Assembly (NCBI GenBank): GCA_947561395.2 | Contig: OX387185.1 | Location: forward strand, 17,572,366 to 17,636,365 | Reading direction: 5' to 3' | Source: Buxus sempervirens | Taxonomy: Eukaryota; Streptophyta; Magnoliopsida; Buxales; Buxaceae | DNA: 64,000 bases | Shown here: positions 3,189 through 63,894 of the stretch, piece by piece | How the letters are laid out: every line of letters starts with the position of its first letter | Numbering within the stretch: the stretch's first letter is position 1 | Program-made: the position numbers and the translations under genes | The notes under the pieces: model-generated | Told to the model about the DNA's origin: nothing | What the model saw: the letters and a program-made list of their open reading frames with translations, nothing else | Databases searched by the model: none

Positions 3189-3699
3189 TGTAACGCCCCG
3201 GATCCGAGTCACGAAACAACACCGTAACTCATCCCCAGAGGTTAATTTAAAACACAGGATCGCAATATCAGAGTGAAGGAAAAACATGAATACCACAATA
3301 ACTATATAACAGAGTGCGCTAAAATATTCTCAAACTAAAATAAAACTCACATGTCCAAAGTAACTACCCGCAAGTATCGAGCTCTCCAAGAGTATCTGAA
3401 AACAAAACGAAAGCAACAGGGTGAGATACGAATATCCCAGTGAGCAGCACATGCATGCACAAATACATCTAGTTCAGTTCTAAAACATGCCATAATTTCA
3501 AACCATATACAACGATGATAACACGTATAACCCAACAAAACTTCAACGATCCAATTTACATTCGTGAGGAAAACCATCGTATAAACCAAGCACTAAAGAC
3601 GATATCAATCATGCATATAGCCGTAAAGTCACGTATAACCAGGTGGCAACATATCGAAGAAAACATAGTTCAACAACTCAGGTTTTTGAAATACTAGAG

Positions 3700-3895
3700 T
3701 GTTTATCATGGGCCACTCCGTACCAATAGAGTATTTTATCATGGGTTACTCCGCACCAATAGAGTATTTTATCATGGGCTACTCCGCACCACTAGAGTAT
3801 TTTATCATGGGCTACTCCGCACCAATAGAGTATTTTATCATGGGCTACTCCGCACCACTAGAGTATTTTATCATGGGCTACTCTGCACCACTAGA
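3700..3895. repeat. 33-bp minisatellite in LTR A1
   Basis: About six tandem copies of a 33-bp unit (TATTTTATCATGGGCTACTC plus CGCACCAATAGAG). The unit length is a multiple of three, so it gives a repetitive open frame (FIMGYSAPIEY). There is no other sign of coding. It sits inside the predicted intron. Confidence 0.9.
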
Positions 3896-4029
3896 TTTCC
3901 CTCTAGTAATTGAATAGGTAATATAGGCTCCAAAGTTCCCAAACAAGTGGTTGGTTAAGTGGTATAAACCTCAAGACATCAAAATCCGCCTTGGTTCAGT
4001 CAAGAATCAATTTCGGCAGTTAAAATGGG

Positions 4030-4300
4030 GTATGCGCTCACTTCCTGAAGTGAGCGCCAGTAGGCGGGTAAGAATCAGGCAAAAATTGTACTATGCGCTC
4101 ACTCGATACTAAGTGAGTGCGAGCTGGGCGGGAAGTGGGCGCGAGATGGGCGCCGGCTTCGCGCGAGGTTCGCGCATGGTTTTAAGTGAGCGCGAGCTGA
4201 GCGCCAAGTGGGCGCCAGCTCGGTGGATGGTATGAATTAAAAGGGCGCCTACTACCTGAAGTGAGCGCGAGTGGGCGCCAGGTCGGCGGATACCCACTGC
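4030..4300. repeat. GAGCGC/GGCGCC palindromic array in LTR A1
   Basis: Many short self-complementary words (GTGAGCGC, GCGCCAG, GGGCGC) lie in an otherwise AT-rich LTR. The same type of array is present at the matching place in copies A2 (33385-33650) and A4 (54820-55080). Confidence 0.75.
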
Positions 4301-4822
4301 GATTTTCAACACTCTGTTATTTCGAGATCTCTACCTCTGGCCGATCTGTTTCGGTCTATAATTGTTCCAATAGACTCCCAATACTCCCAGAATACTTCCC
4401 AACCAGTTTTGGATTTAATCTAAACACATTCGATTTCCAGTTATAATTCACCCTCATGCTCGGACTCATGATGTTCCAGAAAAACCCAGAAAACTCACAA
4501 TACAACCATGTAATCAAAATACATCACGAATAAACTAAAACCTCAGTTGTAAATCAGTGCTACTCACCTTTATACGCTTATATCCCAGAATAAGGTTATT
4601 CCAACCCACGGCCAATCACCGACTCCGACAGCGTGCGTGCGAATGTCGCCGAACTGATCCCCTGTTCGCGAGAGGAATAACTCACTGAAATCCGACTCCA
4701 CTAATCCGGTCGTAGCTCTCGCGGTTCTCATCTCTTCCCAGCGAAACCCTAATCGCCACAGTAGCCGCCCTAATTTCAGAGCAGCAACCTTCCCCCAAAT
4801 CCCCGAAAATTTATATGAGTTA

Positions 4823-4834
4823 CCTATTTATAAA
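4823..4834 (-). promoter_or_regulatory. TATA-like box of LTR A1
   Basis: Sense strand reads TTTATAAATAGG, a good plant TATA box. It lies about 260 bp upstream of the predicted donor site, and this supports the sense direction assigned to family A. Confidence 0.5.
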
Positions 4835-5339
4835 ACATCGCAAAAGTTTAACCTAATTCACCCTCGAGGTTTTATTAACCCTCGGAATCCCCTTTCTGCC
4901 CCTCCTTCAACTTGGCTTTCCCGTATTTACTTATTGGCTAATTTCCTATTCACTACTATATTTTTAAGTTCGATAATTAATTACGTATTAATATTCCACC
5001 TCATTCTCTTTGACAACTAATGACCACAAATCTCTAGCAATAAATAAATTTTGATTAAACCTGTCCATAAATCCTTGTGTTCATACTTTTGCATATATTT
5101 TATTTTATCTACTATTTTATATTGTTTATTTTTTTCTACTCAAAACCTAATTTCCCCTTTAGTATAAATACTTTCCATACATATTGCCGCTCGACAACCT
5201 TTGAAAATCATTGATTCCGTGTACGCTCGTCCACCGAAATCCCTACGTATACCCGTATCTACTTAAGTTAATATGTACACATAATGAATTTTAATAAATA
5301 ATAAATAAATAAAAGTTTAGCAAAAATCGGGGTTTTACA

Positions 5340-5344
5340 CAAGT
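5340..5344. repeat. Target site duplication CAAGT (right) of solo LTR A1
   Basis: Matches 3184-3188 exactly. Confidence 0.95.
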
Positions 5345-6077: not shown

Positions 6078-6114
6078 TAAAACTGATGAAATCTCACCCT
6101 AGGAAGATGTTGAA

Positions 6115-6127
6115 GCTCTGATACCAA
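6115..6127 (-). other. Primer-binding site, initiator tRNA-Met type
   Basis: Minus strand reads TTGGTATCAGAGC, the usual plant tRNA-Met primer-binding sequence, one base inside the LTR edge at 6129 and about 40 bases upstream of the gag start. Confidence 0.9.
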
Positions 6128-6128
6128 C

Positions 6129-6716: not shown

Positions 6717-6906
6717 CATCAATGTGCAATCTGATAGTTCAGCATCCTCTGTATCGGATCCCCTTGCATCATATAAGAGCTCAAATCTCTTCTCAACACA
6801 TGCTTTGAAAAATAAATTAAGATACAAAGAAATATTTCAACAGAAAAAAATTTTCTTCTCAATTTTATTCAGAGGCCATATAAGAACATGCCATAAAGTA
6901 AGGTAA

Positions 6907-7890: not shown

Positions 7891-7894
7891 AATC

Positions 7895-9790: not shown

Positions 9791-9959
9791 GTTTGGGTCA
9801 CCTGGACAGGTCCCAAACGCAACTAGTGTTTATTTTGCAATGATTTGAGACTTATTATTACTATTATTTTTTTGGTATCGAGTTAATTAAAGGATAAGTT
9901 TTATAAGACAGGAATTGGACTAGCTATATTGGATGGTGCAGAATGCGGCAAAGAATCAA

Positions 9960-10660: not shown

Positions 10661-10668
10661 GGTGGAAC
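10661..10668. repeat. Target site duplication GGTGGAAC (left) of hAT element
   Basis: Eight bases repeated exactly at 11399-11406. Eight is the hAT superfamily length. Confidence 0.9.
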
Positions 10669-22009: not shown

Positions 22010-22537
22010 GAACTAAATATAATAAATATAGTAATACAACTCTAAACTCACATAACCGAACAAATACCTGCGGTATCGTCTTCTTCAGGAGCAGCTGAAA
22101 ACAAAACAAAACAATACGGAATAAGATACGAATATCCTAGTAAGTAGCACATGCATGCACAAATACATTTTTCATAGTTATAAAACATGGATCGAATAAT
22201 ACGCCGGTAACAAAAACGATAACATGATTAATCCGACTAATCCCACAATAATACAACAATCAACATGTTATAGCTAATGACATTCCGCATGTAAGTCAAA
22301 GCTGTAGCATCAACGTAAAAATAACCAAATTAATCACATAATCTAATATAATCATAAAACCACGTCTCGATGACACCAATCTTCCAAAGCAAACCAATGG
22401 ATATATCTCAATTCAAAACAATTGTCAATAACGGTAAAGTCACATCATACTCAAGTCCACACATCCATGTGTATATTTGCCTACCAAGGATCAGATACTG
22501 AAATGACATCCCACTCTAAGTATCGTCATCTAATGCC

Positions 22538-23270: not shown

Positions 23271-25481
23271 TAATTCAAAACCATTACTTTAATCACAAAT
23301 GAACTTGCAAATACCACCAACCTCTGGTAGCAAATAAACCAACCTTTGGTAACAAGTAAACCAACCTCTGGTGTAACAAATACTAAAACAAACCATCTTT
23401 ATCATGGGTCACTCAGGACTAGAACAATACTTTATGAAACTCCAAATGTATTTTTAAAACCAAAGTACATATTCAAACTAATCTGTGTAAACAAATAACT
23501 CAAGGAAACCTCTTTTATAAATTATGTCCAGCATACAAAATTAGATAAAACTCAGTTTAAATGATACCACAATATGAAATTCAGTAATAAAACATAGATT
23601 ACAAAAATACTTGAAATCAGCAAGAGTTATGCTCAAATACTTCTATTAGGTTGGATGAAAGTTTTCTAAGTTCTCTTAATATTCTTTGCTAAAGTTCCGT
23701 TGTTCATCTACTGGAAATTTGCTGTAGAGATTCAGTGTTTAATATTTCCAGATTATGACTAATCTTAATAAGTTCTAAGAGTCAGAGTTAATAGATGAAA
23801 ATATGAATTTGAGTTGCAAAAGGAATTATCAGCAACTCACTACTAGGTTCTATAAATATTCCTTACATTTATACTTACCTCAATTCACTAACTAATACCC
23901 ACTTCAGCAACTTATTACCTTGCTTTAGTTATCCTAGAGTAGTAATTAGGTTTAGGAAACTTGGATTAAATCTTCCATGACTCAGCCAAACTAAGCTATA
24001 ACCAAACCAAATGAAAAATCACTCTAAATCCTAACCTTTAATCACTTAAATTCTCTCCATAATTATTGGTATGAATTCAGTAGATTATAATCACTTGAAA
24101 CTAATACTGACATCTTAATTAAACTTCTAGATAGGTTTTTGAACCATAAAATTAGAGAAATCAACTCAAAATTGCTTAGCCCCACTTGGTTTTCATTTTT
24201 ATAGGGTGCTCAGACCTACTGTCAGTAGGCGGCACTCAGCGCCCCTTTGCACATCCAACACTTATAACTACGGCTGAGTACCGCTGACCTCTTGTCAGTC
24301 AGCCGTACTCGGTGCACACTTCTCTGTTCTTCTGAAACCATTTTAAACACTGCTAAATCAAATCTAAACAGGACTGAACCAATTTTAAAACTCCTCAACA
24401 ATTGAATCATGTTCATAATCCTCCTAACAACCTTCTAGAACTAATTTGGATTTAATTTAACATGAAATAACTATAATCAGAAGGATTTCGCTCGAATGAC
24501 ACTCATAGGAGATAAAACTTCAGATACAGTGATTGAATTCATGCTTCAAATCAAATACGCTTGCAATCCGGTAGAAAGTAAGTGCTACTTACTTTTAATT
24601 AAGTTCAGATTCAACTTCTAGTTTAGCTCGAGCTCCAGATCACATCCGATCGAAATTCTTCTCACATTCTCCTCTGATCAACAACTGAACCAGATCTAAT
24701 TAGATCTGAGTTTAATTCAAATTATCTTCAACAATTAATCGCTAAATTCAGATTAGAATTTCTCTTACCTGATTTCAATTTGATCTAATCAAACACTCCA
24801 TTCTCCAGAAATTTGCAGTCGTGAATAGCCTTTGGAACTTCTTCTTTCTCTTGGATCAACTCAGCAACCACACCATTTTCTCCTCTTTCTTTCTTACACG
24901 AATGCTCTCCTTCTAAACCCTAGCTCCAGATCTCCTCTTCCTTCTCAGAGGCTTTAGAAATTTCGACCAGCAACAAATCCTCTTGACTGAATTCTTGGCA
25001 GTTCTATATAGTTGCCGCCAGCCACTTTAAATTCTTCATGACTTGCTGGTTGATCACCCACAGAGATTCTCTACATGGTCAATCTCTTAACCACTTGATT
25101 AAAGACTTGTAACTCCACCACTAGTCTACATTAGCACTATCATTTTAATTAAAGCACTTAAATTAAGATATATTATTATTATTAATCACCTTGCTGAAAC
25201 ATATAATAACTATTTATCTTAAGTAACATCTTTTTTAGTAAATTTCCGAAATTCCCATAATACCCTTGCTTGCTACACCACCGAACCACCAGAGCCCAAC
25301 CAATGAAACTTAAATGACCAATTTATAATCTTTAATAATTCTTAACACTAATTTGAAATTTTACCCTAAATAACTTCCTTTTCTCCATTTCTAAAAGTTT
25401 CCACTAATTAAATAAATCAACACTCATAAATTCAAAATTTTAATTTTATTAAAAATTCGGGATTTTACACCCCGCTACCTA

Positions 25482-32637: not shown

Positions 32638-33384
32638 TGTAAGACCCTGAATTTTGGTAAGGTATTATTATTTTTATTATTATTAAAATATAGTTGTGTG
32701 CTTGTTAACTTAAATGGATGCGGGAATATGTAGGGTTTGGGCGAGCATGCACAGGATCAAGGACTTTAAAGACTGTACAATACTTTTGGCGCATACAAGG
32801 TAAATATACAAAAGGGGAAATTTAGGTCTTCGGGTTGTTAGAATACTCGTAGCAATACTTTTGGCAAAACTTTCGTTAGCTGAAGAAGTTGGGCGACTTG
32901 GCGATTCGTGGCTCTGGTGTGGCGATTAGGGTTTTGCTGAGAAGAACGAGAGCTGCAAATAGCTGCGATCGGATAGTTGGAGTCGGAGATACAGCTTCGG
33001 GTTATTTACTCTCGCGAGCAGGGGATAGTTCGGCTACCTTCGCATCCTCGCGCGCAGCCGGAAAACGTGATCGGCCGAGGTTGTGTTATTCTGGGATAAG
33101 CGTATAAGAGTAAGTAGCATTGATTTACAATTGAGGTTTTGTGTTTATTCGTGAGTTTATTCTGATGCATGAGTGACTTCTGAGTTTTCTGGGTTTTTCT
33201 GGAATACCAAGAGTCCGAGCATGAGATTGAAATGCAACTTGAAATTAAATGTCTTTAGATTAAATCCAAAACTGGTTGGGAAGTATTCTGGGAACATTAG
33301 GAGTGTATTGGAACAATTACAGACTGAAACAAATCGGCCAGAGATAGAGATCTCGAAATAACAGAGAGTCGAAAATCGCAGTGG

Positions 33385-33650
33385 GTATCCGCCGAGTTGG
33401 CGCCCACTCGCGCTCACTTAAGAAGTAGGCGCCCTGTTGAAATTCTATTATCCGCCGAGCTGGCGCCCACTTGGCGCTCAGCTCGCGCTCACTAAAATGT
33501 ATGCGCGAATCTCGCGTGAAGCCGGCGCCCATCTCGCGCCCTTTTCCCGCTCAGCTCGCGCCCAATTAGCGTCGAGTGAGCGCATAGTCCCATTTCGGCC
33601 TAAATCCTATCCGCCGACTGGCGCTCACTTCAGGAAGTGAGCGCATACCC
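33385..33650. repeat. GAGCGC/GGCGCC palindromic array in LTR A2
   Basis: Repeated GGCGCCCACTTGGCGCTCA-type words with GCTCGCGCTCACT. It corresponds to 4030-4300 of A1. Confidence 0.8.
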
Positions 33651-34254
33651 AATTTAACTTGCCGAAAGTGATTCTTGACTGAACCAAGGGGGATTTTGAT
33701 GTCTTGAGGTTTATACCATTTAACCAATCACTTGTTTGGGAACCTTGGAACCTGCATTACTTATTAAATTCCTAGAGGAAATTCTAGTGGCAAATTCCCA
33801 AAGGCTTCTAAGGTTGAGTTTAGGTTATTTGTATATGTTGTGCTGGATACCAAAACAATGGGAGTTCCTAGTAATTTTCCCTCGAATTTATACACTGTTT
33901 TGATTGAGAAATTATTGACTTCTGGTTTCACTTGTTTGGAAAATTCTGAATGTATTGTAAGGTTTTCTTGGTATGAATAATTGTGTTTTGTATTCAAATG
34001 GCATGTGTTGCGGAAATGAGAAAATACTGAAAGTACTTGAGATACTGCTTGGTCCAGAGGGACAGGTGATGAACTGTGATGAGTTATACATGATGTGGAA
34101 TGAATGGTTTTACTTTGATATTGGAATTGAGATTATACGATGATTTACTGTTTTTGGTTTAGCTTGTCCTGGATCCAGATGCTTAAGCTTAGTAATGTAA
34201 TGTTATTGTTGGTTGTTGAAATTGCATGGCCTTGTGTGTTGCCACAACCGGTGT

Positions 34255-34385
34255 AAAGCAGCCAGAAACCCTGAGTAGGCCTGGTTGTCAATTCAGAAAC
34301 CCGGGGAGTAGGCCTGCATTGGATGACGAAACCCTGAGTAGGCCGTCATTTCAGAGTTTCCGAAACCCTGAGTAGGCCGGAACTG
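34255..34385. repeat. GAAACCCTGAGTAGGCC repeats in LTR A2
   Basis: Four degenerate copies of GAAACCCTGAGTAGGCC separated by short spacers. The spacers themselves repeat the preceding few bases (CTGGTTGTCA, TGGATGACG, CGTCATTTCAG). Confidence 0.85.
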
Positions 34386-34660
34386 TGTACATGGAGGTGT
34401 GGAGTGTCTACTTGGCATGTTTAATTTATCAACTAAATGATAGTCATGACATTGACCAATCGATGTGTTGCCGTACTTAACGGAGATGTGATTTGACTGA
34501 TGAAATGAGTTTTGGTTTGAACTTGAAATTGATGTTAGTTGTTTAATCGTACGGAATGTTTATCGATGCATAGTTTTGAACTGTGGTTAACTATTTCTGC
34601 ATGCATGTGCTACTCGCTGAGGTATTCATATCTCACTCTGTTGTTTTGTTTTGTTTTCAG

Positions 34661-34737
34661 ATACTCGTGGTGAGGCGACTACTGGGGTAGATCCGGCTGA
34701 GGCTTATAGGGAGGAAGATTACTATTACCTTCCTTAG
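34661..34737 (+). other. Exon 2 of LTR A2 with short acidic/aromatic frame
   Basis: Starting at the acceptor, the frame reads DTRGEATTGVDPAEAYREED and then YYYLP before TAG. Copy A4 reads almost the same (DTRGEVPTGVDPADTYREED, YYY, stop). A third copy (A7) ends SPEDYFYPDIV. No open exon 1 frame was found to join it, so coding is doubtful. Confidence 0.35.
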
Positions 34738-35154
34738 ACTTGTAGGTTATGTTGTTTCGAATTTGAGAAATTTGAATGTTGAGGTGTATTAAAGTCTTTT
34801 GGGGTTGAACCATATGATTTCTAGTTAAGTTCTAAATGTTACATTTTGGATTAATGAAATTGTGCACTCTGACAGGTTATAGTTAGATGATTATCCAGCG
34901 ATCATAAACCATTACCGATCCTTACCTAACTTCCGTGAGACATGTTATATCTTTATTGAACAACAAGGATCCGGGGCGTTACACCTTTTGTCAAGAGAGA
35001 GAGAGAAAAAACCTAACCTTCCACATACTCATCAATGGATAATACACTTTCTATCAATGTGCACACCACCCCATTCTTGACGATCTCTTCAAGCATACTT
35101 GAAAAATGGGAAAAACCGGAGTGAGATATAAATCTCAGCAAGTAGCAAAGTGCA

Positions 35155-35177
35155 TGCAAAAAAAAAAAAAAAAAAAA
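35155..35177. repeat. Poly(A) run
   Basis: About 20 consecutive A residues within A6. Confidence 0.8.
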
Positions 35178-35829
35178 GAAGTCAGCTTTATGAAATAGTC
35201 ATGAGGTATACGATAAATCAAATCAACAATAAATAATTTCAGTTACACGTTATCAATTCCAAAATAAACGATGAACCATACACAAAAACACCATATGTGA
35301 CATCACAGGACTCATGAAGAAAAGTAAGCCTTTGAAAAGATACTCTTCATTCACTACGCCACCATGCGACTTATGAGCGAAGCTAGTAATCACAACCCTC
35401 ATACTAGCCATTGGGATCTGAAATATGGGGCCTAGACATCGACTTATTACGTACGAACTCACATACTAGCAACTGGTATCTAAAATACGGAGTTTGGCAA
35501 GTACCACCCAAGCATACAGCCACTGGTATCTGAACATGGGGATGGTCGTTAATCAATACATACAGGGCACCTCACCAGCAACTGGTATCTGAAATGAGAC
35601 CTTATTGTACATGAAGATCTCCCAATGCGAACTAACTCGCAAAGGAAATGCGATTGTAAATTTGGAGTAATCAACCCAAAAGAAATACCCCATTCACTAT
35701 CTAGCTTAGCCTATAGATCCATATATAGCTATATCCACTAGACACAACTCACACTTTATCCTATTTACAATTAAATTGTTGATTCATATGCATAATTTCA
35801 TAATCCATGATTTCATAAGTGATAATTCA

Positions 35830-35830
35830 A

Positions 35831-35873
<43 letters not shown>
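35830..35873. repeat. (AAT)n microsatellite
   Basis: About 14 perfect AAT units followed by AACAACG, inside LTR A6. Confidence 0.9.
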
Positions 35874-35877
<4 letters not shown>

Positions 35878-35972
35878 CGCACCCTTAGGTGAAGAACATG
35901 TCTCAATCACAATATTACAAACACAGGGTAATTGCATCTCTAGCACGAGAGAATACACACCTCTACTGCAGG

Positions 35973-35977
35973 ATGAA
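35973..35977. repeat. Target site duplication ATGAA (left) of solo LTR A3
   Basis: Repeated exactly at 41680-41684. Confidence 0.93.
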
Positions 35978-36405
35978 TGTAAGACCCTGGAATTTTAAGA
36001 ATTTTTAATTAAGAGTAAATAAATATTAAAGGATTTAATTAGATTAATTAGATCAAAATTTAAAGGAAATAATTGTTTTGGTTTGGTTCGGTTTAGTTGG
36101 ATTATTTCACTTGGGGAAAAGAATTATTTTATTGGGTTAGGGTTATTTAATTGATTTAGTGGGTAATGGGTTAATTGATTAATTTATTTAGGTTTGGTTG
36201 GCTGGGTCGGTTCAATTCATCAAACCGGTTTAATTGGTTTAAGAAATATGTATATATATGATTAAAGAAACCAAAGGTTCTTATTTTTATTTTCGTTTTT
36301 AAGGGTTAGAAAGAAAGGAAGAAAATGCAGAGGAGAAGGGGAAAGGAAGAAGGAGAAGAAGGAAAAGAGAGAGAGGGTTTCTAGCTTGGATTAGCAAGCC
36401 CACAG

Positions 36406-38153
36406 GTAAGTGGCACCTTTCCAACTACCTTTTTGTGAAGAAATCGAAGTTTAAACGAGAAATACATGTTCGGTTTCCTGCGATGTTTGAAGTTTTGTCG
36501 ATTGATTTGAGTTGAAGCATGTTTAGGGTGTAGAATAAGTTGTAAATGGTTGGATTTTTATTTTGGAGTGTTCTTGATGATTTTCGAGCTTTAAATTTGC
36601 TGTGAATTTGAACCCTAGAGTAAATTTCCAGATTTGGGTATTTTGGGGTCATTTGAAGAACATCCACAAATATGTTGTGATTTATAGGTTAAATTGTTAT
36701 AGAAACGTTTAAAAAGTATTCCCTAATGATTCAAAAGCTATTCCCAAAGTTTTAGAGCAAACCAATTAAGTTTTGGTAGTAAAAAACCTCAGAAAAAGCC
36801 TAAAAAATCGCGGCTATTTGTAACCTGTATTTTACCCTGAAATTTGGCCTGGTGCCTGAAGCGCGGCTCGAGCGCCCCTTTGGGCGCCCAGCAAAATTTA
36901 ACTTGAAAATCCAACCTAGCCTAGCGCTTGAAGCACGGCTCGAGCGCCTAAGACAGAAAACCATATTTTTTTCCCAATTTGAGTTGATTTTAACAATAGA
37001 ATTGTTTTTAATCAAATTCAACCTATGTATAAATGAGATTTAGGTATTTAGGAAGTGCTTGCACAGGAATTACCTTAAAATTCAATATAACGAAGAATTT
37101 GTGCACATTCTTCTAAACTAGATCCTTAAGAGGCTTTTGGTTTTAAATCATTATAGAATAGGATTATTTTGATTCTACCACTTGGAACACCTTTCTGAGG
37201 CCTTTCCTAGGGTGTTTTCACAGGCCAATTATAACTATGAGCTTATACCAGTTACTTGGCCACCTCTTCTACCAAATTGGCTTATTTTACGGTTAAAAGT
37301 AGATTTTATGGTTTCACACTAACTTAAAAGGATTCTAAGGGTTTCTACTTATGTGATTCTCATAATTATTCTTGTTTTAGGTATATAAACCTCTGAGAAC
37401 ACCATTTTGGTCAGATTTAAGAAAATAGTGGCTTTGGGCTTTATTTTGTATTGCTTGGGTTTGATTTTGTTTTGATTGGGAAACTTGTTGAGATTTGTGA
37501 TTTGAGAGTGAAGCTGAGGCTTCCTGCTACTTTGAAAAGCCGATGGCCTATGGAAAATTTGGGTCTGTGGTTTGTTTTATGATCTAGTGGGCTTAGAGAT
37601 GGTTGTGGATCCATGATCAATCTAGATAGTGTATCAGTGTTGGCTTGTCGAGTTAATACCCTGAGCCACATTCGCATTTCGTGTGGGATCGGTGAGGTTT
37701 TCTTGTGAGATAGAGGGCTGCGGCAACCCATTTCCGTCGTGTGGGATCGGCGAGGTCTTTGTGTGTGTGAGTACGCGTGTGTCATGTGCGTGCGTATGAT
37801 TTGATGGATGTTGACTGGGTTGTTTCGTGCCAGTCCATGTGTGGGTGTTCCACTCGTGCCAAGATCGTGCGCGGCTTCGACCTTGAGTAGTGAGGTGACA
37901 ACTTGGCCGAGGGTGGTTATCTCGATTTATAGACACACTAATCCATGAGTCTTGTACAGACACTTTATTTCTGATATTATATTGTCATACTTGAACTGTT
38001 TCGTTGCACGATTTTGATAGAATTTGATCGTATGATATGTTAGCATGTTACTTCATTATCTTCAAGTTGCATAAACTATTTTGTATCATGCATTGTGCTA
38101 CTTACTAGGACATTAGTCTCACGCGTGTTTTGTTTTATCGGCTTTGTTTTCAG
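36406..38153 (+). other. Predicted LTR intron, copy A3
   Basis: Donor CACAG|GTAAGTGGCAC (36406-36416), the best match to the plant donor consensus among the copies. Partner GTGCTACTTAC (38095-38105) pairs at 11 of 11 with one G-U. Hairpin AGGAC-ATTA-GTCTC has a C-G pair where others have A-U. Acceptor TTTGTTTTCAG ends at 38153, 16 bases before the nested LTR B2. Confidence 0.55.
36855..36945. repeat. CGGCTCGAGCGCC palindromic pair in LTR A3
   Basis: GCGCGGCTCGAGCGCC at about 36860 and GCACGGCTCGAGCGCC at about 36936. It corresponds in place to the GAGCGC arrays of A1, A2 and A4. Confidence 0.7.
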
Positions 38154-38164
38154 ATCGCAGTGAG

Positions 38165-38169
38165 GACGA
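38165..38169. repeat. Target site duplication GACGA (left) of solo LTR B2
   Basis: Repeated exactly at 41371-41375. Confidence 0.93.
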
Positions 38170-39117
38170 TGTGCGCATGTGGAATCGCATACGGCGGGTC
38201 GCACGTGATTTGTGCGTGCCTCCTGATGGGAAAAATGAGAAGTTGGAGTTGCCACTGCCTGATGGGGTGTAGGCAGACACCTGGGGAAGTCCGTATACAC
38301 CCCAGTCCACCCTGTCGGATGACGGGTCCCATCCTGGTTTGATTCAATTTGGTTTCTCACCCGGTTCCTATTCCAGTATGCACATTTGATTGAGTCTGGC
38401 GGGACCGCTGAAGTGGTGTGGGTCCATTTACTTGATTTTATCTTCTTAGCTTAGAGTGATATGAGTTTGATCGGGCAGGCCCCGTTGGAAGGCCTGCGGA
38501 TCCCTTGGTGGGCTTGGTTAAGCCCACGTGTCTCCTGGTGGGCCTCAGTCTAGCTTGAGAGGTCTTTTGGGCTTTGGTTCAAGTGAATTTGATTTTGTTT
38601 GATGTTCAAGTTGGAAATTAAGTGATTTTCATGCAAAGTGGGCCAGGATTGCTTTGTGGGCCCCTGAGTGGGCCACACCATTAGTTGCTGAATGATTTTG
38701 AGTTATCTTGATTAACTATGCCAAAATGGGCTAAGCTTTGGGCTTGGGGCCCTTTACTCGGGCTTGGGTGCCCTAATCTTTGTTGGGTTCAATGAGCTTA
38801 GTGGGGCCGACAGGCCCTACCCGTGGTCTCGGCCAAACCATGCCTAAATCTAAGCATCATGCTTCCTAAGTTGGGCTTTGTTGGGCCTCCAATGGTGTGG
38901 CCCACTCATTCAGTTAGATTATCTTGATTTAGCAAAAGTAAGTTTGTCGGGCTTGGTGGGCCCCGTTGGAAGGTCCACTGGAAATCAAATTGAACCGGGT
39001 CGGTCCATGGCCCATCTTAGGTCTTCGGTTGACCCAAAAACCCCTTTGGTTCATCCGGATTGATCAAATAAAGCATAAAAATTGCACAAGACTATGAAAT
39101 ATGGAAATTGGCATTTC

Positions 39118-39235
39118 AACAGTGTAGCCGACCTTGGTTGTCGGCTACAAACAAAGCTACTTGTATGCGACCATGATGGTCGGATACAAAGAAGGCCATG
39201 TTGATCCGACCTGAGTTGTCGGATCAACTAAACAA
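39118..39235. repeat. Hairpin array 1 in LTR B2
   Basis: TGTAGCCGACCTTGGTTGTCG, TTGTATGCGACCATGATGGTC and GTTGATCCGACCTGAGTTGTC each form a stem of 10-12 bp with the bases that follow. All three share the GACC...GGTC style core. Confidence 0.85.
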
Positions 39236-40078
39236 ATGGTCTTTTCGGATTTTGCCAATGGGCTTGGGTTTCTGGGTCTTTTAGGATGTTCCAGTGATGG
39301 TGTGGGCCCCTGGTTGGGCCCACAATGGTTCAAGGAAGAGGAAGACCACACTTTTGGTCTCTTATGGGGTTTTTACAACAAAGGAAGGAGGGGGGAGGTG
39401 TGGGAGGTTGCCTCCTCCCACTCTAAACATTTCCAGCAATGTAACAGGGACCTAAGTGTCCGTGTTTAGGTTACCCAAAGCCTTCTCCATCCCTCCATGT
39501 AGAGAGAAGAAAAGAGAGGCCCGGTAGGCCAATGCTTAGTCCACTTTCGGCCGCACAAACCACATATTTGACAAAACATCATACTAATCACGTTAAACAA
39601 GTCATATGAAACACAAAAATATGCAAAAACAGTAGGTAAACAAATAGGGTGGATATGTGCTTAAGTGGACATAAACAAACCCCCTGAAAGGGAGCTATCA
39701 TGGTTCCCATGCATGGCATCTCATGAACTAAACTTGGGGCATTTGGAGGGTATGAGAGCATGCTGAAGAATAGTGGCTATTGGAGTGAAAAGGGAGCAAG
39801 CTAGTGACACCAAACAGTAACTAAATGAATGGGGAATGAGTAATTGCATGGGAGCTATTATGCATGAATATACTTGGGGGTGGGTGAGCATGGGATCAAG
39901 GACAAAATGGCATGCATGCTGTCCTCAACAGCAACTAAAAGGGCACCATAATGGGGGTGTAAGGGAAGGCATGAATCATACATAAACACCCTATACCTAG
40001 CATGCATGTCCTACAAATTACACCACATCCAAAGCAAGCACATGATCATTAAACCAAACTACTTAAAGAAGGGAAGGA

Positions 40079-40094
40079 GGGGGGGGGGGGGGGG
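40079..40094. repeat. 16-base G homopolymer
   Basis: Uninterrupted G run inside LTR B2. Long G runs are uncommon in plant DNA and prone to sequencing error. Confidence 0.9.
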
Positions 40095-40704
40095 TGTTAA
40101 AGGGTACATGAGAGTGACCAAGAGGGGGAACAAGCTCCCCCATTCGAATGGCAGCAAAAGCATGCTAAACAGCACCTAAACAGTCCCTTTAAAGTGCCTA
40201 AAATACCTCTCATCCTCCCTTCAAATCATGTGTATACTCCATCTCACATTTAGAGACTTTTATATGACAAAAAATGAGAAGAACATGTGGGCAAGCTATG
40301 TAGAAAAACGGATCCAAACAAAGGAGAAACCAAGCTTTTTAAAGATTGCGAAATGCCTTCATTTTTATATATGTGAAACAAGTGGGAGTAAGAAACAATA
40401 CCTTAGGGTTAAAACCTTAGAATGAGATGTGTGGAGCCTTCTTAAAGTGAAGGAAACAGCTGGAGCCTTTCTCTTGCACCACTAACAGCAGCAAACCTCC
40501 TCCTTGCTTGGGGGAAAATGGAGAAGAAGAAGAAAAGGGAGAGAGGGAGAGCCTTAAGGTGATGCTTGAAAGGTTTGGGGAGCCAAAGGGGGGCAAGAGG
40601 AGGGGATTTCGGAGCAGGAAAAAAGGGGAAGAAAGGGGAAAAACAGCAAAGAAAAGCCAACCCCCGAAATGGGGCTGCTGTTGTCTTTTCATAGAAAAAT
40701 TTTT

Positions 40705-40795
40705 GTATCCGACATTTAAGAAGAGAGGAGTGTGTATATATGTCAGATAAGAAGAGAGGAGTGTGTATCCGACATATATGGTTGGATAGAAATCG
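40705..40795. repeat. Hairpin array 2 in LTR B2, with 37-bp duplication
   Basis: GTATCCGACAT and ATATGTCAGAT words with a tandem repeat of AAGAAGAGAGGAGTGTGTAT. It corresponds to 18665-18880 of B1 but the stems are eroded. Confidence 0.7.
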
Positions 40796-42365
40796 GATAT
40801 TTACAGATTTAGTCCCTGGATATTCGCAGATTACTTCGATACACTTGGATATTCATAGATTTGGTCCCTGCACATTTTTGATTTAGTCCCTGAGATATTT
40901 TGAATGTTTAGATATTCACGGATTGCCCCCCGAGATATTTTCCTGCGCTTTTCGCCACGTGTGTAGCTCTTTGCCACGTGGACAGTTTCTGGCTTTTGCT
41001 GCCCGGAAACTTCAACATATCATATCTTCTTCATCCAGACTCCGATTTGAGCAAACTCAGTTGCGTTAGAACCGTATCGGAGTCCTATATCCATTGGAAT
41101 AGGATTAAGCAGCTGATTTGGGGTTTAGTAGAAAGTCAACTTTCGGCTCCCCTCAAGTTTTATCGGCCTGCAGATCCTTCATCCGGACTCCGATTCCAAC
41201 AAACTCAGTTGCGTTGGAACCGTGTCGGGATTCTCTATCCATTGAGATAAAGCAAGGTGACTAATTATCACTTGATCAAAAAGTCAACTTTTTGTCCCCT
41301 CGGGATTTGACTTTTCAGTTAGGGTTTGCCTTTCCGGCACTTCTGGGGGTGCAAAAATGAGGTGCTAACAGACGATTCATTGGGGGTATATATTATTGCA
41401 GGCCATCCGGAGTATTGAGAGGAAGACTTCTTTGTGGAGTAGAGTCGTTTGATTGTAGATTTTTGAGACTTTGTTTGGATATTGTGAGTAATAGTATTGA
41501 ATAATATTAATCCAATGTGAAATGGTGATTGGTATTAGTTGATCTGTTAGTCATGTATTGGCAACTATTCTTGACCATTTCATGTTTTTCTTTACTCTGA
41601 TTTAGATCCTGTGAATCTTAGTTAACACACCGAATACGAGTTATGGTTGTCCTACGTAACCCGGATTCGGGGCGTTACAATGAATACACACCTTTACTAT
41701 AAAGGATTACACATCTCAACCACAGAGGATTACACATCTCTGTCGTAAAAGTTAGTATCAACTCAACCACAGGAAGCAGTATCACTCATCCGTAGGAGAA
41801 AGAACAAGGAATTCATTTATTATCCTGAAATTAAACCCTTTAAAAAAACACACCCAAAACTACGATTAAATCCCCAAATCAAATTTCATAAATTTTATCA
41901 TACTTGAATCATACTTATTTAAGTTTTAGACAAGTTGGTAGTTCACATTCATAAGCAATATTTAAGTTACTAGGTCTTGAATAAAACTTTACTAATTAAA
42001 CTACCAAATAATGTCCAAATTTCCTCATTTAAAACTTAAGGTGTCAAATTTTGCAATCTCTGTTTTTTTTATCACTTCTAGCGGTTCACACAGGTCTATA
42101 TTGAAGTTTAAGAGTTGGTTCTATTCTCCAAATTTATATTTAGTCTTAATCTACAAATTCCGCCGCATTGTCATCTTAAGCACTTCTTTACATTCATCGT
42201 TCCAAATTATTAGTCTTAATTCACAATTTAATTTCGTAAATTCCTACACCTCAAATTAAACCTTATATAGGCGCTACAATGATTAAATTGATATAAAGAT
42301 TATTAAAATTAATTTTGACCCTAAAATCCACAAAATACAAATTCTGGTAGAGGCACTGGACATGG

Positions 42366-42402
42366 GTGCTCAAGCAGTCTGTTGAGCGACGCCCAATTCC
42401 TA
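42366..42402. repeat. Short GCTCAAGC...TTGAGCG inverted repeat in LTR A6
   Basis: GGGTGCTCAAGCAGTC pairs with GTTGAGCGACGCCC. It sits at the place of the palindromic arrays in other family A copies. Confidence 0.6.
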
Positions 42403-42964
42403 CAAATTTTCTGGTTTTCCAATTTTTCCAAATTCTGTGATTTTTATTCGATTTTAATTATTCTAAATTTGCTTTTAATTAATCTAAATCATCTCTAAAA
42501 CATTCCAAACCTATTTTACCAATTGATTACAGATTATAAGTATCTACAAAGATTAAACTTACTTAAATCAATACTTTTCTATTTTCCTTTCAAGAACAAG
42601 AAAACTTGCCTGGGAAAACAATTCAATTCGTGAAACATGATTTAATCTAAATCAAAACAATCAGAAATCATTCGAAATCACGAAAATCATGTAGCTCCTT
42701 CAGTTTTCAAGTGATTGCTACTTGCTTTATTATGCAAAATCCATCTTCCCGATGAATCCGGTATTGCAGCCATGTTTTCGCCATTATCGCACCTCTCTAG
42801 GGTTCTTCAAACAAGATCTCCACTGTTCAGATTATAGCCCTACCAGTAGTGAACAAAACCTCCAAATTTGAGGCTGATTCAACTGTTTAATCTCTCCCGA
42901 TCAAAATTTGATGAACGCTGGTTAGAAATTTCTGCAGCAGCTTATCTCTCTATAAGTCTTTTGC

Positions 42965-50343: not shown

Positions 50344-50721
50344 TTATCCAGGTGGTTTGTCTGGTGCGCTAGAATCGGTGATACCGTACTGCCACCGGCT
50401 ATAGGATGGGGTCAGTGAGTGTGAGGCCCATGTCGACACGGGCATCCATCCGTCCGTTCAATGAAGTGGCTCCAGGAGAAACGGTCTCCTAGAGAGTGCG
50501 TTTTCGTTCTTCCTTCGTGCCTACGTAGAGTCGCAGCCAAGAACTTCACGTCTCTCTCTCTTTATCTCCTTTCTTCCACCCCGAGACTCCATCAAACTGA
50601 GGCTTTCTTCTACCAAAAAAATCAAACTGAGGCTCTCTCTCTCAAACAAAACCTTCACCTCTCTCTCCTAATTTCTTTCATTCTGAGAGTCATAAACACT
50701 CTCTCTCCTTCGCGTGTAACC
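50344..50721 (+). promoter_or_regulatory. Upstream region and 5' leader of the DUF6817-like gene
   Basis: It lies between the Mutator-like repeat and the start codon. The proximal 190 bases are rich in CT runs (50551-50570 and 50632-50710), typical of plant 5' leaders. The frame is open upstream of the chosen Met, to another ATG at 50461, but that stretch is CT-run translation (SLSLYLLSST) with no protein character. A TATA box was not recognised. Confidence 0.5.
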
Positions 50722-52008
50722 ATGCCGTCTTCTTCTTCTTCTTTGCTCCCTTCCCTATCTCAAAAGCATCTCCAAAGCCTCTTGGAATCTGCCAAGCCTT
50801 TTCTGCGTGGCGAATTCGAAGCCATAGACCCAAAACTCCCTTCTCTCGTGGCCGTCCTTCGTTCCGTCGGTGCCGGCGAGTGCTGGCACAAGCACGGCAC
50901 CTTCCTCGATCACCTTCTCGACGTCTACCGCATTCTAAAGCAATGGAAGTCTCCTGACTCTGTAGCCCTCTGTGGTCTCTTCCACTCTGCTTACTCCAAC
51001 TCTTACGTCAACCTTGCCATCTTTGATCCTTCCACAGGTCGCGACACCGTGAGAGCACATGTTGGTGAAGCCGCAGAGCGCTTGATTCACTTGTTCTGCA
51101 TCGTCCCACGCCAGCCCCTCATCCACGACGATCTCCTCTTCCGGTACACCGACCAGGAACTCGTCGAACACCTCAAGTCATCGGAGCTTTCGTTGAGGAA
51201 CGCAAGGGAGAGGGGTTTGTTCAATCATGAAGAGGGGTGGAGGAATAAGGTCCGATCCGTTGTTCCTGCTGAAGGGATTTTTGTGAAGCACATCAAGACT
51301 GGTGATGATGTGTTAGTCTCGAGACGGGTTGTTGCCGTCTTCCTTATGATGACCATAGCAGATTTCAGTGACCAGCTCTTTGGATTTCAGGATGCCTTGT
51401 TTGATAATAAGGACGGCCGGTATGAATTTTCCGGCGACAATTGCGGTGCTCTTTGGCCCGGCGACGGAAAGCCGGGACTTTGGATGAACTCGATATCCAG
51501 GATGGGTGCATTGTATACTTTGATTGTGAGAGAGGAGGAGATTTTCATGGAGGAGAATAAAAGTGTTGATGGAGGTTTATCAAATGGAGACAGGGATGAA
51601 GAGATAGAGCTTGTGATACCACCTGTGTTTGAGAGTTGCACAAAAGTTTTGGATGCAGGGGAGCAGATAGTTGCTAGGGACTTGTATTGGGAAGCTATTT
51701 GTGGGGGGTCCAAGACAGCGTCTGAAAGAGTTGAGGAGTTGTTGTTGAGGTGTGTTGAGAAGAACCCATTTGTGGGGGAGCCTCATGTGGTGTTGGGTCA
51801 GGTATATTTGACAGAGGGGAGGTACGAGGAGGCTGAGAGAGAGGCTGAAAAGGGATTGATCCTTATGTTGGAATGGGGCAGCCCTTGGGATAAGAGAATG
51901 TCTTGGGAAGGGTGGATTGCATGGGCAAGGGTTTTGTTGATGAAGGCAAAGGAGAAGTCATGGCCTAAAACAAATTGGGGTATCCTTAATTTAGGGCTTG
52001 TGAGGTAA
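50722..52008 (+). CDS. DUF6817-like plant protein with TPR-like C-terminus, intronless
   Basis: Intact 428-residue frame ending at TAA 52006-52008, the only intact host-like gene here. Start chosen at MPSSSSSLLPSLSQKHLQSL because the sequence upstream looks like a CT-rich leader; an in-frame ATG at 50461 would add 87 residues. Residues about 52-110 (CWHKHGTFLDHLLDVYRIL, CGLFHSAYSNSYVNLAIF) contain a His-rich helical pattern reminiscent of HD-type folds: His58, His64, His88 and perhaps Asp214 in MTIADFSDQ. Residues about 330-415 (ASERVEELLLRCVEKNPFVG, then LGQVYLTEGRYEEAEREAEKG) resemble tetratricopeptide repeats. I recall this protein type in plants as DUF6817 with TPR-like annotation; its biochemical role is unknown to me. 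No signal peptide or membrane helix is evident, so cytosol or nucleus is likely. GC is higher than in the surrounding DNA, especially in the first half. A Mutator-like element lies upstream and a copia remnant downstream. Confidence 0.88.
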   Translation: MPSSSSSLLPSLSQKHLQSLLESAKPFLRGEFEAIDPKLPSLVAVLRSVGAGECWHKHGTFLDHLLDVYRILKQWKSPDSVALCGLFHSAYSNSYVNLAIFDPSTGRDTVRAHVGEAAERLIHLFCIVPRQPLIHDDLLFRYTDQELVEHLKSSELSLRNARERGLFNHEEGWRNKVRSVVPAEGIFVKHIKTGDDVLVSRRVVAVFLMMTIADFSDQLFGFQDALFDNKDGRYEFSGDNCGALWPGDGKPGLWMNSISRMGALYTLIVREEEIFMEENKSVDGGLSNGDRDEEIELVIPPVFESCTKVLDAGEQIVARDLYWEAICGGSKTASERVEELLLRCVEKNPFVGEPHVVLGQVYLTEGRYEEAEREAEKGLILMLEWGSPWDKRMSWEGWIAWARVLLMKAKEKSWPKTNWGILNLGLVR

Positions 52009-53876: not shown

Positions 53877-54819
53877 TGTAAGACCCTGATTACTTTGTGG
53901 GGTTATCCATGATTTATTCATTCTGTTGATATACATAAACTGTGTTTATCAGGTGTTTAGTGTGGTTTGAGGGCTTAGCCCATGCTCGTATGTACAGGCG
54001 TTATATAGCCAATTTTTCGGAAAAATATTTATATTTATCGTATGATTTTTATTGTATGGTGTCTACGTATTTATTAATTTAATTAATATGTCGATGCCGC
54101 GAGCATGTGAGGTTTTGGTGGGCGAGCGCGCATCGGATAAAGAGAAAAAAAAAGATATGCATCCAACGGCGTATTTCTCGTAGGGTAAAAATGGGTAAAA
54201 ATTTCCGAAGGGGGAAAGTAGGGTTTGGGTTGTAGGGATACGCGTAACTTGCGTAAGTTACGGAGGAAATCTTCATTGGAGTTAGAGCTGTGGCGACTGC
54301 GGCGGAAATGGCGATTGGGGTTATTCTCAGGAAGAGAAAGAGTCTGAGGAACTACTAGAAGCTCATTCGAGTGGGATTTAGGCGGGTTTTCTCTCTCCTG
54401 AGCAGCGAACAGTTCGACTAACATTTAGGCTACCATTTCGTCTTCGCGCATTCGGGATCGCGATCGGCCGATTTCGAGGACGACTACCATTCTGGGATTA
54501 TCGCGCACACGAGTGAGTGGCATTGTTTTACCACCGAGGTTTTCGGATTTATTCGTATATGCATTGAATGATATCATGGTATTGAATTGCATGAATGTTG
54601 GGGTTTTCTGGGAAACACAGTTACGAAGGGTTTTAGTTACGGAGGGTTTTCGTTTTGCACAGTGAAATTGGGGATAACTGGGAAGTCATTTAGATTAAAT
54701 TCAAAATTGGTTTGGATGTATCCTGGGAATATTAGGAGGCCATATAAGTGTTCACAGACTGAAAAATTACAGCCAGAGTTGGATTTCCGGCATTAACAGA
54801 GACCTGGAAATCGAACTGG

Positions 54820-55800: not shown

Positions 55801-56024
55801 ACTGTGTACATGGAGGTGTGGAGTGTCTACTTGGCATGTAAATTAATCAATGTAACCATATGCATGGCATTGACCCGGTTTGAGTTGTTATCGAAATTTA
55901 CGCGGTTATTATCATTGGTTATTTGTCGAAGCATGTCTTATAACTGTGTTAACTATTTTATGCATGCATGTGTCACTCGCCGGGATATTCGTATCTCATT
56001 CCCTCGTTGTTACTTGTTTTTCAG

Positions 56025-59798: not shown

Positions 59799-59812
59799 AC
59801 TGCCCCTTTCTG
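59799..59812 (-). other. Probable polypurine tract beside LTR C3
   Basis: Sense AGAAAGGGGCAGT directly before TGTAGAAACCC. Polypurine tracts prime plus-strand synthesis next to 3' LTRs. Confidence 0.6.
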
Positions 59813-61469: not shown

Positions 61470-61975
61470 ATGGCCCGTATTCGATCAGCTCCTAGGGATC
61501 TTGCAGATGAGCCCTCTTCCTCTAGGGTTCGGAGGGATCCGGCCGATGTGGCTTCTTCCTCAAGAGCTGAGAGGGACTCCGATTTAGATGTCCCTGATCT
61601 TCCTTTTGGGGGTTCGCGGGAGGCGACCCTAGAGTTATACTCTAACCCTTCTGAAATTCAACTTCTTTCAAAATCTTTCACCCTGATCATTTCTTCTTTC
61701 AATTTGTTTCTTTAGCCGGTGGTTGAGGCTCCTGGCCGAGGTAGGGGCCGTGGCGAGCGCCGAGGCAGAGGCGGAGGCCATGATGGAGGCCATGGTGGAG
61801 GTAGAGGCTGAGGCAGAGAGGGGTCTGAGACCAGAGTGGAGGTGCCCGCGGCAATTGCAGTGCAGATCAAGGATACCGACCTTCTTCATGGCTTGAGGAC
61901 TCATCCCTCAGCCTGTATTAGGGCGGATGTCCCTCTGGAGTATCCTCTGTCCCATTATAGAGGGAGTTGGGCTAG
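61470..61975 (+). pseudogene. Unidentified open frame with Ser/Arg/Asp-rich start, cut by LTR A7
   Basis: From ATG 61470 the frame reads MARIRSAPRDLADEPSSSRV, then DLDVPDLPFGGSREATLELY, to a stop near 61715. Another frame (61716-61975) has a Gly/Arg stretch (GRGRGRGERRGRGGGHDGGH), one stop, then VQIKDTDLLHGLRTHPSACI and PLEYPLSHYRGSWAS. The arrangement recalls plant-mobile-domain proteins or gag-like first ORFs of retroelements, but I am not certain of either. Solo-type LTR A7 interrupts it at 61976. Confidence 0.4.
61971..61975. repeat. Left flank GCTAG of LTR A7
   Basis: Candidate target duplication; the right-hand copy lies outside the window. Confidence 0.4.
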
Positions 61976-62436
61976 TGTAACGCCCCGAACCCGGGTCAGT
62001 GCAAAACCGGCACCCGACCCGAACCCGTTTCGCTACTGTAACAACCCGAATTCAGTTCAAAAACCAAATCCGAGGTGTTACTGGCCCATATCAAATAATC
62101 ATCAAGAATATACCAAACTAAAGAAATAAGAAATCCATTCAATTAAGTAACTATCAGAGTGCGGAACATGTATGTGTGGAAGTATAGTCTAAAATCCTCA
62201 AACAACTAATATAGTTAACCATCAAAATCAATCATTAAGTCTGGTAAAATAAAAGGTCACTAATCTCTTATTTCTCTAATACATCAAACCCAATTAAAAT
62301 AGAATAATCTGATAAAGTAACTAAATCCATGACAATCCACAACCTCAGACAATATCCGGGTAAAAGTAATCCTCCGGTGAATAATCAGCTATCTCTCCCT
62401 GGAAATCAATACTATGATCCCCCTCTCGCGTATCAG

Positions 62437-63894
62437 CTGAAAAATGAAATAAAAGTAGGGTGAGATACGAATATCCCAGTAGGTAACACATGCATGTTTA
62501 AACAGTTCATATAAGTAAAATAACAGTTCATGCACGATTAAGCAATATCGACTAAGCAGGCTCGTATAATCATTCATATCAATCATGAATACAAAAACAG
62601 TATAGTTACACAGTTCTAAATATGATTTTCAGCAAGTTCTATTATAGGAATCCAATATCAGAATCAATAACATAATCCATACTTTGCTAGGATGCACTAA
62701 ACAGTCACATCCGACTAATATCTCAATTACATGCCTCCAGCATGTATACAATAGTAACAACATGTGTTTATGATTTTAGTGTCATTTTAGGACTCACAAA
62801 GATAGATAAACCTTTTGAGATGACTCTCGACCAATCGCTATACCACCGTGTGGCTTAGGAGCAATGCTACTAATGATACTTAAGTCCTATGCAGCGCAGC
62901 TTAGACAAGAGCCGTAGTCACTGACTTATTGCACACGTACCCATAAGAGTTGGCATGTACCACCAGCATGTAGCACCAGAATCAATACATGGAGATGGTC
63001 GCTTATCCACATGTACAGTGAATCACCAGCGGCTCACCGGGGTGTCCCTCCAGACATAGGACCTTCCCAAACAAACTAACTTGCAAAGGAAGCTCGCTCG
63101 CACAAGGGAGAAACTGAACCCAACTGAAATATCTCTTAGCTATCTAGCCACAACTATGGATCCATAACTAGCTATGCCCACTAGACTCTAAAAATTCCCT
63201 AAAATATAATATTTCTATAAGGGTTGGTGCCTAGCGGCATATAAAGGTTAAATCTGTCATTTACTTCAATATTCGGGGTTAACTGAGTTGAACTTATGAT
63301 CTGAATTCTCTTTATGTAATTATCTGAGTTATAGTGTAGTTTAGAGATGTTCTAGTAATCAATTAATAGTCAAGTTTTCCAAAAACTAGATTTCACAATT
63401 ACGTTCAAAGTTTGGCAACTAATGTCCTAAATATCTTCCTAATTTATTTTTTTGTAAAACAAGAAGTTTGATAATTTATTTTGGTCTTAAAACATCTTAA
63501 TTAATCATTAAAATTGACTAAAAATAGTTTGGAATTTAATCAGGGTTTGAAATTATGAAATTTCTGCACAGAATGCCTAGGATCGCCCCGGCGGTCTAAG
63601 GTCAGCGGTAGTTGATTTTAGATCGCTAATGATAAGTCGTCTTGCGATCTCAGGCGGTCTAAATTTTTACACTTGCGCCTAAGAGTGCCGAGGATCGCCG
63701 AGCACAGTCGAGGTCGGCAGTCCCTAAAAAACGTTCAGAAACAATGTAAAAGTATAATTTTTCACGTCCAAGATCATTCTAACATACATATAATATTGTT
63801 ATAAAACTAAATACATGAATATAACATACAAAAACATGCTTTGGAGATTAAACGAACGTAAATCCAAAAACAAACAGAAACCGGTGTCACCTAC
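62437..63894 (-). other. Predicted LTR intron, copy A7
   Basis: Donor CAGTG|GTAGGTGACAC (63884-63894). Partner GTGTTACCTAC (62479-62489) pairs at 11 of 11 with one G-U. Donor position 4 is G and position 8 is A here, and the partner has changed to match. Hairpin GGGATA-TTCG-TATCTC. Acceptor CATTTTTCAG at 62437. Exon 2 reads ADTREGDHSIDFQGEIADYS and then PEDYFYPDIV with the donor's last G. Confidence 0.5.
63575..63725. repeat. GATCGCC/GGCGGTC palindromic segment in LTR A7
   Basis: GGATCGCCCCGGCGGTCTAAG, GTCTTGCGATCTCAGGCGGTC and GATCGCCGAGCACAGTCGAGG. Same relative place as arrays in the other family A copies, different core. Confidence 0.7.

Follow-up and report, generated by a model that had tools for sequence, protein, structure and literature searches.

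A family of Ty3/gypsy retrotransposons in Buxus sempervirens carries, within its long terminal repeat (LTR), a predicted intron whose 5' splice site can pair with an 11-nucleotide (nt) stretch shortly before the 3' splice site, and we hold with high confidence that this pairing is a conserved, covarying potential of the sense strand. The window analyzed is a stretch of 64,000 nt (positions 17572366 to 17636365 of contig OX387185.1, here C6, of a 676.5-Mb genome) with seven copies, A1 to A7, four of them on the minus strand (A1, A5, A6, and A7) and three on the plus (A2, A3, and A4) (Table 1). A sequence-only reading of the window had proposed one arm pair for each copy, and a check of the sequence found the donor and partner 11-mers at the implied places in all seven. 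With G.U counted as pairing, 76 of the 77 cells (a cell being one position of one arm pair) are paired. The sole unpaired cell is an A.C at position 3 of A2, the only mismatch that reading had allowed, and the two copies said to have changed both arms did so, both members of the pair differing from the commonest at positions 2 and 11 in A6 and at 4 and 8 in A7. The partner ends 40 to 48 nt before the acceptor AG, again as proposed. The arm distance of about 1.0 to 1.7 kb suggested for uninterrupted copies describes A1 to A4 and A7 (1117 to 1689 nt, start to start) but not every copy: the arms are 2442 nt apart in A5 and 7577 nt apart in A6, and accepted donors outside the window lie up to 3.2 kb from the partner (L064, one of the copies fetched from elsewhere in the genome, where insertions were unchecked). 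With the interrupted A6 left out, the window introns measure 1172 to 2498 nt. A likely LTR start of A3 at 35978 (+) falls inside the A6 intron (35099 to 42725, -) and would explain much of the 7.6-kb distance; A6 also has no plain CAG acceptor (TTTTTCAAG).

Identity and orientation of the element

That these copies are LTRs, and that the intron is read in their sense direction, was borne out by target duplications, a primer site, and element domains. The solo LTRs A1 and A2 have TG...CA ends and 5-bp target-site duplications (ACTTG and CCTTT, respectively); no matching duplication was found for A4. In one copy (L036), the primer site TGGTATCAGAGC, which we take to match the initiator methionine tRNA, stands four bases past the 5' LTR. 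One full-length A7-type element (L079) has RVP_2, RVT_1, RNaseH, H2C2, rve, and SH3_Tf2-1 between its LTRs, with protease, reverse transcriptase (RT), RNaseH, and integrase in gypsy order; rve falls below its cutoff there (28.7 versus 32.6 bits) and H2C2 above. The element is a Ty3/gypsy retrotransposon. Since the domains lie between the LTRs and the primer site follows the 5' LTR, the intron is sense oriented and precedes the primer site. It is probably a Del/Tekay-like chromovirus to which the element belongs; its tail after the integrase, which is truncated, gave no Pfam chromodomain match, and its last residues presumably resemble a chromodomain, which is likely by eye only.

Abundance of the family and the copies studied

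The family is abundant. The 3' intron motif GCAT-N12-GGGATATTCGTATCTCA, with the partner left free, matches the genome 11,066 times when up to 2 mismatches are allowed, and its reversed control matches once. A pattern that also leaves the hairpin open to any sequence gave 11,565 matches versus 2 for the control, and an A3-type pattern with up to 3 mismatches gave 628 versus 3. For the exact 11-mer GTAAGTAGCAC, whose matches may be either donors or partners, the count is 2,747 (control, 109). The motif had no exact match in IMG/VR.

The 40 regions fetched come from 100 places among the motif matches; each lies on contig 1 and matches the anchor exactly. Order alone decided the first 20, and for the second 20, places with a repeat of a common partner sequence were passed over, so that partner variety is enriched. 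An extra opposite-strand anchor match in L068 was left out. With the seven window copies, the study set comprised 47 copies, of which 43 had an accepted donor. Window donors were used as given; elsewhere the rule was complementarity, free of mismatches and with 8 or more Watson-Crick pairs, except that the flank decided in L044, L064, L068, L076, and L077, and that in L056, L059, and L075 a near match was taken whose flank fitted by eye.

Pairing beyond chance and covariation

A fully pairing 11-mer was found within 3 kb upstream in 29 of the 40 fetched copies; the same search with shuffled partners gave a mean of 2.3 (ten shuffles), and the reversed partner gave 1 of 40. The best-fit score averaged 9.41 for a copy's own partner and 7.64 for other types, the own partner scoring higher in 42 of 47 copies, and neither permutation that swapped partners among the 17 types, by copy or by type, reached the observed value (0 of 20,000 each). 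Likewise, the predicted arm pairing energy was -14.0 with the own partner and -10.9 with swapped ones (0 of 10,000; 25 types).

The history of the arms was read on a FastTree tree built from flanking sequence with the arms excluded. Starting from a paired state, 41 changes were counted: 26 single and 7 double changes that kept the pairing and 8 that broke it. In a tree-aware null, in which the same changes were moved to random branches (2000 runs), compensated double changes averaged 1.7 against the 7 observed (1 of 2000 as high), breaks 15.3 against 8 (3 of 2000 as low), and paired cells 423 against 465 of 473 (1 of 2000). To avoid circularity, donors were also located independently from 50 nt of flank alone; a score of at least 32 was reached in 28 copies, and removal of three picks that were off by one base or elsewhere (L042, L053, and L067) left 25. 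Paired cells then numbered 279 of 308 and 270 of 275, respectively, and the partner swap by type gave 62 and 47 of 20,000. On the tree, the 270 paired cells of the 25 copies compare with 233.9 under the null (0 of 2000).

Several results weigh against conserved covariation and temper how far it can be pressed. Most donors were placed using complementarity itself, and none was accepted for L039, L043, L050, and L061. The own partner ranks first of the 17 types in 20 of 47 copies. In the wide set, all pairing-keeping changes taken together show no excess (33 versus 28.9 under the null; 212 of 2000), and of the 11 single-position G tests under the tree null, only those at 3 (0.036) and 4 (0.0065) come out under 0.05. 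Some couplings between positions that do not face each other (donor 7 to partner 8, donor 8 to partner 4) equal the true pairs in strength, so part of the covariation signal is shared ancestry. Among the 25 flank-located copies, there was no excess of double changes (1 versus 0.7) and no difference in breaks (5 versus 4.5). Pairing is thus clearly kept in that subset, and the case from double changes depends on the wider set. The proposal of a covarying long-range pairing therefore stands for the larger set, the subset upholding its pairing part alone.

The kinds of noncanonical cells bear on whether RNA or DNA is being kept. With donor picks that treat both alike, G.U cells outnumber A.C cells 52 to 11 in 41 copies, some of the latter coming from apparently wrong picks (L068, L074, and L076). 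Splicing nearly fixes the donor base at positions 1, 2, 5, and 6, which favors G.U by itself; at positions 7 to 11, which are largely free of splice constraint, the counts are 34 and 4 (43 copies), or 25 and 3 in independently located copies. On the tree, A.C occurs 5 times against 10.5 under the null (6 of 2000 as low), and G.U shows no rise (20 versus 23.5). Against a role as RNA, G.U leads only 30 to 11 by distinct arm pairs, and the distinct kinds of position and pair are equal, 8 each. Avoidance of A.C with tolerance of G.U is what sense-strand RNA pairing predicts, and the scarcity of A.C points to it, although the counts are not independent of one another.

Intron features and a hairpin beside the partner

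The copies show the features of a U2-type intron: a GT or GC donor (counted over 27 types), a pyrimidine tract, and an AG acceptor, which a pattern finds in 41 of 43 copies, missing A6 and L048. Over the 27 types, conservation around the donor falls from 1.27 to 0.29 bits between -2 and -3 and, sharply again, from 0.85 to 0.30 bits between +11 and +12. A TTT is also conserved at donor +15 to +17.

The sequence one base past the partner, GGGATA-TTCG-TATCTC, makes a stem of six pairs around a UUCG-type loop. In local cofolds of the arm regions, hairpin and arms were predicted together in 9 of 11, the exceptions being A4 and L071. Copies not chosen for the hairpin carry variants of it (AGGATA/TATCTT in A5, GAGGTA/TATCTC in A2, and GAGAT/ATCTC in A6), and the A3-type hairpin has GGGAC or GAGAC with GTCTC (L001, L003, and L008) or GTCTT (L002). 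By an eye count, one stem pair is broken in 8 of 59 inspected matches to the pattern that leaves the hairpin open, five of these at the end pair. The variants are suggestive of a conserved stem. The stem is kept despite an extra base at C6:21259355 (GAGATA-TTTCG-TATCTC) and C10:5870490 (GAGATA-TTCGT-TATCTC). Two weak matches to the hairpin motif at 10791 and 11346 (-), 555 nt apart, have TGTATATTCGTATTTGAATCCGAATTTT in common.

The hairpin overlaps CTCAC or CTCAT, a plausible candidate branch point; in A1, 26 nt run from after its A through the AG. A branch point within the partner was discarded as a general rule, several partner types carrying G there. Directly before the partner, the window copies have the palindrome CATGCATG, with small changes in A3 and A6, which we take to be the RY motif that B3 proteins read in plants; one such site is at 34591 to 34606 (+). 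Rfam matched four places in the window with E values of 1 or less; none reached its gathering score, and none was at the arms. Some cofolds predicted that the exon 1 tail pairs with the 3' splice site, a pairing rejected since own tails did no better than swapped ones (4312 of 10,000), though they were slightly stronger than shuffled tails (-11.7 versus -10.7; standard deviation, 0.7).

Exons and traces of splicing

Across 41 copies, the last 120 nt of exon 1 contain 20 ATGs, where composition predicts 101; the intron has 1767 versus 1520 expected, and the first 200 nt of exon 2 have 138 versus 178. This shortage offers only a hint that exon 1 may be the leader of a translated RNA. TGA, GAT, and AGT are not depleted in exon 1. 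In A2, A4, A7, L060, L064, and L071, a similar acidic frame of 23 to 30 codons (e.g., DTRGEVPTGVDPADTYREEDYYY) opens exon 2 and then stops. In that frame, exon 1 has no start (L066) or, by eye, a stop just before the junction (A1 and A2). Continuation of the exon 2 frame into the intron was dropped as a cause of conservation, the hairpin's frame differing among copies. A genome search for spliced junctions of three subfamilies, at up to 3 mismatches and covering few exon 1 forms, found no match. This absence would fit copying from unspliced RNA alone and, just as well, a lack of splicing.

A possible lock on the 5' splice site

The likeliest function of the pairing, to which as a whole we would give an even chance, is a lock on the 5' splice site. 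The Ty3/gypsy LTR would have its U2-type intron before the primer binding site, and if transcription starts upstream of the donor, that intron would lie in the repeat and unique 5' (R-U5) leader of the element RNA. Bases +1 to +11 of the intron, which make up the entire 5' splice site, would pair in sense RNA with the partner stretch before the acceptor, and the tetraloop hairpin one base farther on would overlap the likely branch point. Such a helix would cover the site of U1 (and U6), making helix and U1 binding mutually exclusive, and would thereby delay or prevent splicing in part of the transcripts, selection retaining the lock while some RNA is still spliced. In reverse transcription, the full LTR is rebuilt from unspliced RNA only, and such a lock would for that reason be kept by selection. 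The transcription start, splicing, the helix in the cell, the branch point, and the effect are what we infer from sequence; the donor bases appear to be paired in a conserved structure in the sense of potential and covariation.

The sequence-only reading had suggested that the partner could mask the donor, loop the intron out, or balance spliced and unspliced RNA, and all three roles are still proposals. The predicted helix energy exceeds that of U1 pairing in 21 of 25 types. The partner had been likened to the U1 5' end, a resemblance that seems secondary, since donors departing from the U1 match are followed by their partners: GTAGGT goes with ACCTAC in the A7 family and GCAAGT with ACTTGC in A6 and L060. 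On the other side of the ledger, helix and U1 energies correlate at r = -0.44, opposite to what a fine balance would lead one to expect, perhaps through GTGAGT and GCAAGT donors that weaken U1 and strengthen the helix. U1 could also bind before the partner, over 1 kb away, is transcribed. Exon 1 is also short of GTA (34 of 101) and TAG (54 of 101), so the shortage of ATG may be partly composition, which lowered our confidence in the lock. Exon 2 retains ATGs, the first at a median of 42.5 nt. A TATA[AT]A box lies upstream of the donor in just 4 of 7 window copies (in A7, the search had the 106 nt upstream of the donor within the window), and the absence of spliced junctions would equally fit no splicing at all.

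The same helix might instead promote splicing by joining the ends of a long intron, to be opened in time for U1, an unlikely account in our judgment. One arm does lie at the 5' splice site and the other close to the likely branch point, the intron is long in every uninterrupted window copy, and zipper stems are known in yeast. The yeast stems were reportedly only counted as such when 10 nt or more separated them from the 5' splice site (PMC12350175), whereas the helix here begins at +1. Starting at +1, covering the U1 site, and having to open for U1, the helix favors a lock over a bridge. It is more doubtful still that helix, hairpin, and the CATGCATG palindrome form a leader structure for dimerization or packaging, with masking a by-product. 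The palindrome stands immediately before the partner in window copies, and the module is upstream of the primer site; however, the palindrome doubles as the presumed RY motif, and GCAT was a fixed part of the anchor pattern, which makes the palindrome's conservation among fetched copies partly an effect of how they were selected. The precedent for such a leader is human immunodeficiency virus type 1 (HIV-1) (PMC5192399).

We regard it as very improbable that the arms are kept alike at the DNA level, as an inverted repeat, by gene conversion, or as a protein site, without an RNA role. The arms are inverted repeats of one helix turn, G.U does not exceed the tree null, and the equal numbers of G.U and A.C kinds slightly raised our confidence in this account; A.C below that null and the G.U:A.C cells of 52:11, or 34:4 at positions 7 to 11, speak against it, as do arms lying exactly at splice-site positions. 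Eleven base pairs are also very short for gene conversion, which we counted against it. Least probable of all is a coincidental complementarity between a GTAAGTA 5' splice site and a TACTTAC-like branch point. Read in reverse complement, the consensus GTAAGTA comes close to a TACTAAC-type branch site, and the partner sits where a branch point may lie, both of which count for coincidence. But the complementarity extends through +7 to +11 and covaries, and several partner types carry G at the would-be branch A (CTTGC and CTCGC), opposite a donor U or C.

Positions and neighboring features

The features of the seven copies are collected in Table 1. The A1 solo LTR adjoins a CCHC/protease/RT/RNaseH reading frame at 1010 to 3154 (-); given this frame and no primer site between, A1 probably sits within another gypsy element as a nested copy. 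At 50461 to 52008 (+) there is a reading frame of 515 residues with DUF6817 (PF20680; E, 1.7e-31).

Table 1. Positions of arms, hairpins, acceptors, and LTRs of the intron-bearing copies in the window
Feature	Positions	Strand	Basis or remark
A1 donor arm GTGAGTAGCAC, 5' splice site +1 to +11	4557..4567	-	sequence
A1 partner arm, 11/11 paired, one G.U	3440..3450	-	sequence
A1 hairpin GGGATA-TTCG-TATCTC beside partner	3423..3438	-	sequence and cofold prediction
A1 acceptor AG	3396..3397	-	sequence
A1 solo LTR, 2151 nt, target-site duplication ACTTG	3189..5339	-	no primer site after LTR
A2 donor arm	33110..33120	+	sequence
A2 partner arm, A.C at donor position 3 its sole mismatch	34607..34617	+	sequence
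A2 hairpin GAGGTA-TTCA-TATCTC	34619..34634	+	sequence and cofold prediction
A2 acceptor AG	34659..34660	+	sequence
A2 solo LTR, 2346 nt, target-site duplication CCTTT	32638..34983	+	
A3 donor arm	36406..36416	+	sequence
A3 partner arm	38095..38105	+	sequence
A3 acceptor AG	38152..38153	+	sequence
A4 donor arm	54513..54523	+	sequence
A4 partner arm, three G.U	55970..55980	+	sequence
A4 hairpin	55982..55997	+	sequence; absent from A4 cofold prediction
A4 acceptor AG	56023..56024	+	sequence
A5 donor arm	24582..24592	-	sequence
A5 partner arm, 11/11 Watson-Crick	22140..22150	-	sequence
A5 hairpin AGGATA-TTCG-TATCTT, terminal G-C replaced by A-U	22123..22138	-	sequence and cofold prediction
A5 acceptor AG	22095..22096	-	sequence
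A6 donor arm, GC donor (GCAAGTAGCAA)	42715..42725	-	sequence
A6 partner arm, double changes at 2 and 11 versus commonest pairs	35138..35148	-	interrupted by other elements
A6 presumed acceptor AG (CAAG, not CAG)	35098..35099	-	sequence
A7 donor arm GTAGGTGACAC	63884..63894	-	sequence
A7 partner arm, double changes at 4 and 8 versus commonest pairs	62479..62489	-	sequence
A7 hairpin	62462..62477	-	sequence and cofold prediction
A7 acceptor AG	62437..62438	-	sequence
Acidic exon 2 frame, A2	from 34661	+	also in L060, L064, and L071
Acidic exon 2 frame, A4	from 56025	+	
Acidic exon 2 frame, A7	from 62436 downward	-	

Meaning and comparison with known systems

An element with an intron in its LTR is in conflict with itself, since splicing has to spare the RNA used for copying. 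About 11,000 motif matches together with natural changes in both arms would amount to a natural experiment on that escape, and LTRs that bear donors in such abundance may affect the splicing of nearby host genes. A survey of 130 plant genomes describes generally modest covariation (PMC12218528), against which this would be a strong case in plant pre-mRNA structure. We found no LTR intron with a paired donor in the literature, as covered by titles and the beginnings of abstracts, most subscription papers being outside that scope.

Several known systems are alike in part. In the Saccharomyces zipper stems, an intron stem links the regions of the 5' splice site and the branch point (PMC12350175), whereas the stem here takes in +1 to +11, the splice site included, belongs to a mobile element, and spans about 1 to 3 kb. 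The HIV-1 leader likewise hides a splice donor by structure in the unspliced RNA (PMC5192399), but does so with a tandem three-way junction, in contrast to one long-range helix whose partner lies beside the acceptor of the same intron, within the LTR. BARE1 (PMC3735527) and Ogre, CRR, and EVADE (described there and in PMC12786077) are plant LTR elements with both spliced and unspliced RNA; the introns described for them are in or between coding regions, unlike the intron with a paired donor in the LTR leader here. Finally, conserved complementary regions in human pre-mRNAs also tie long-range pairing to processing (PMC8052449); those regions belong to host genes, while here a single motif with about 11,000 matches recurs in a transposon family.

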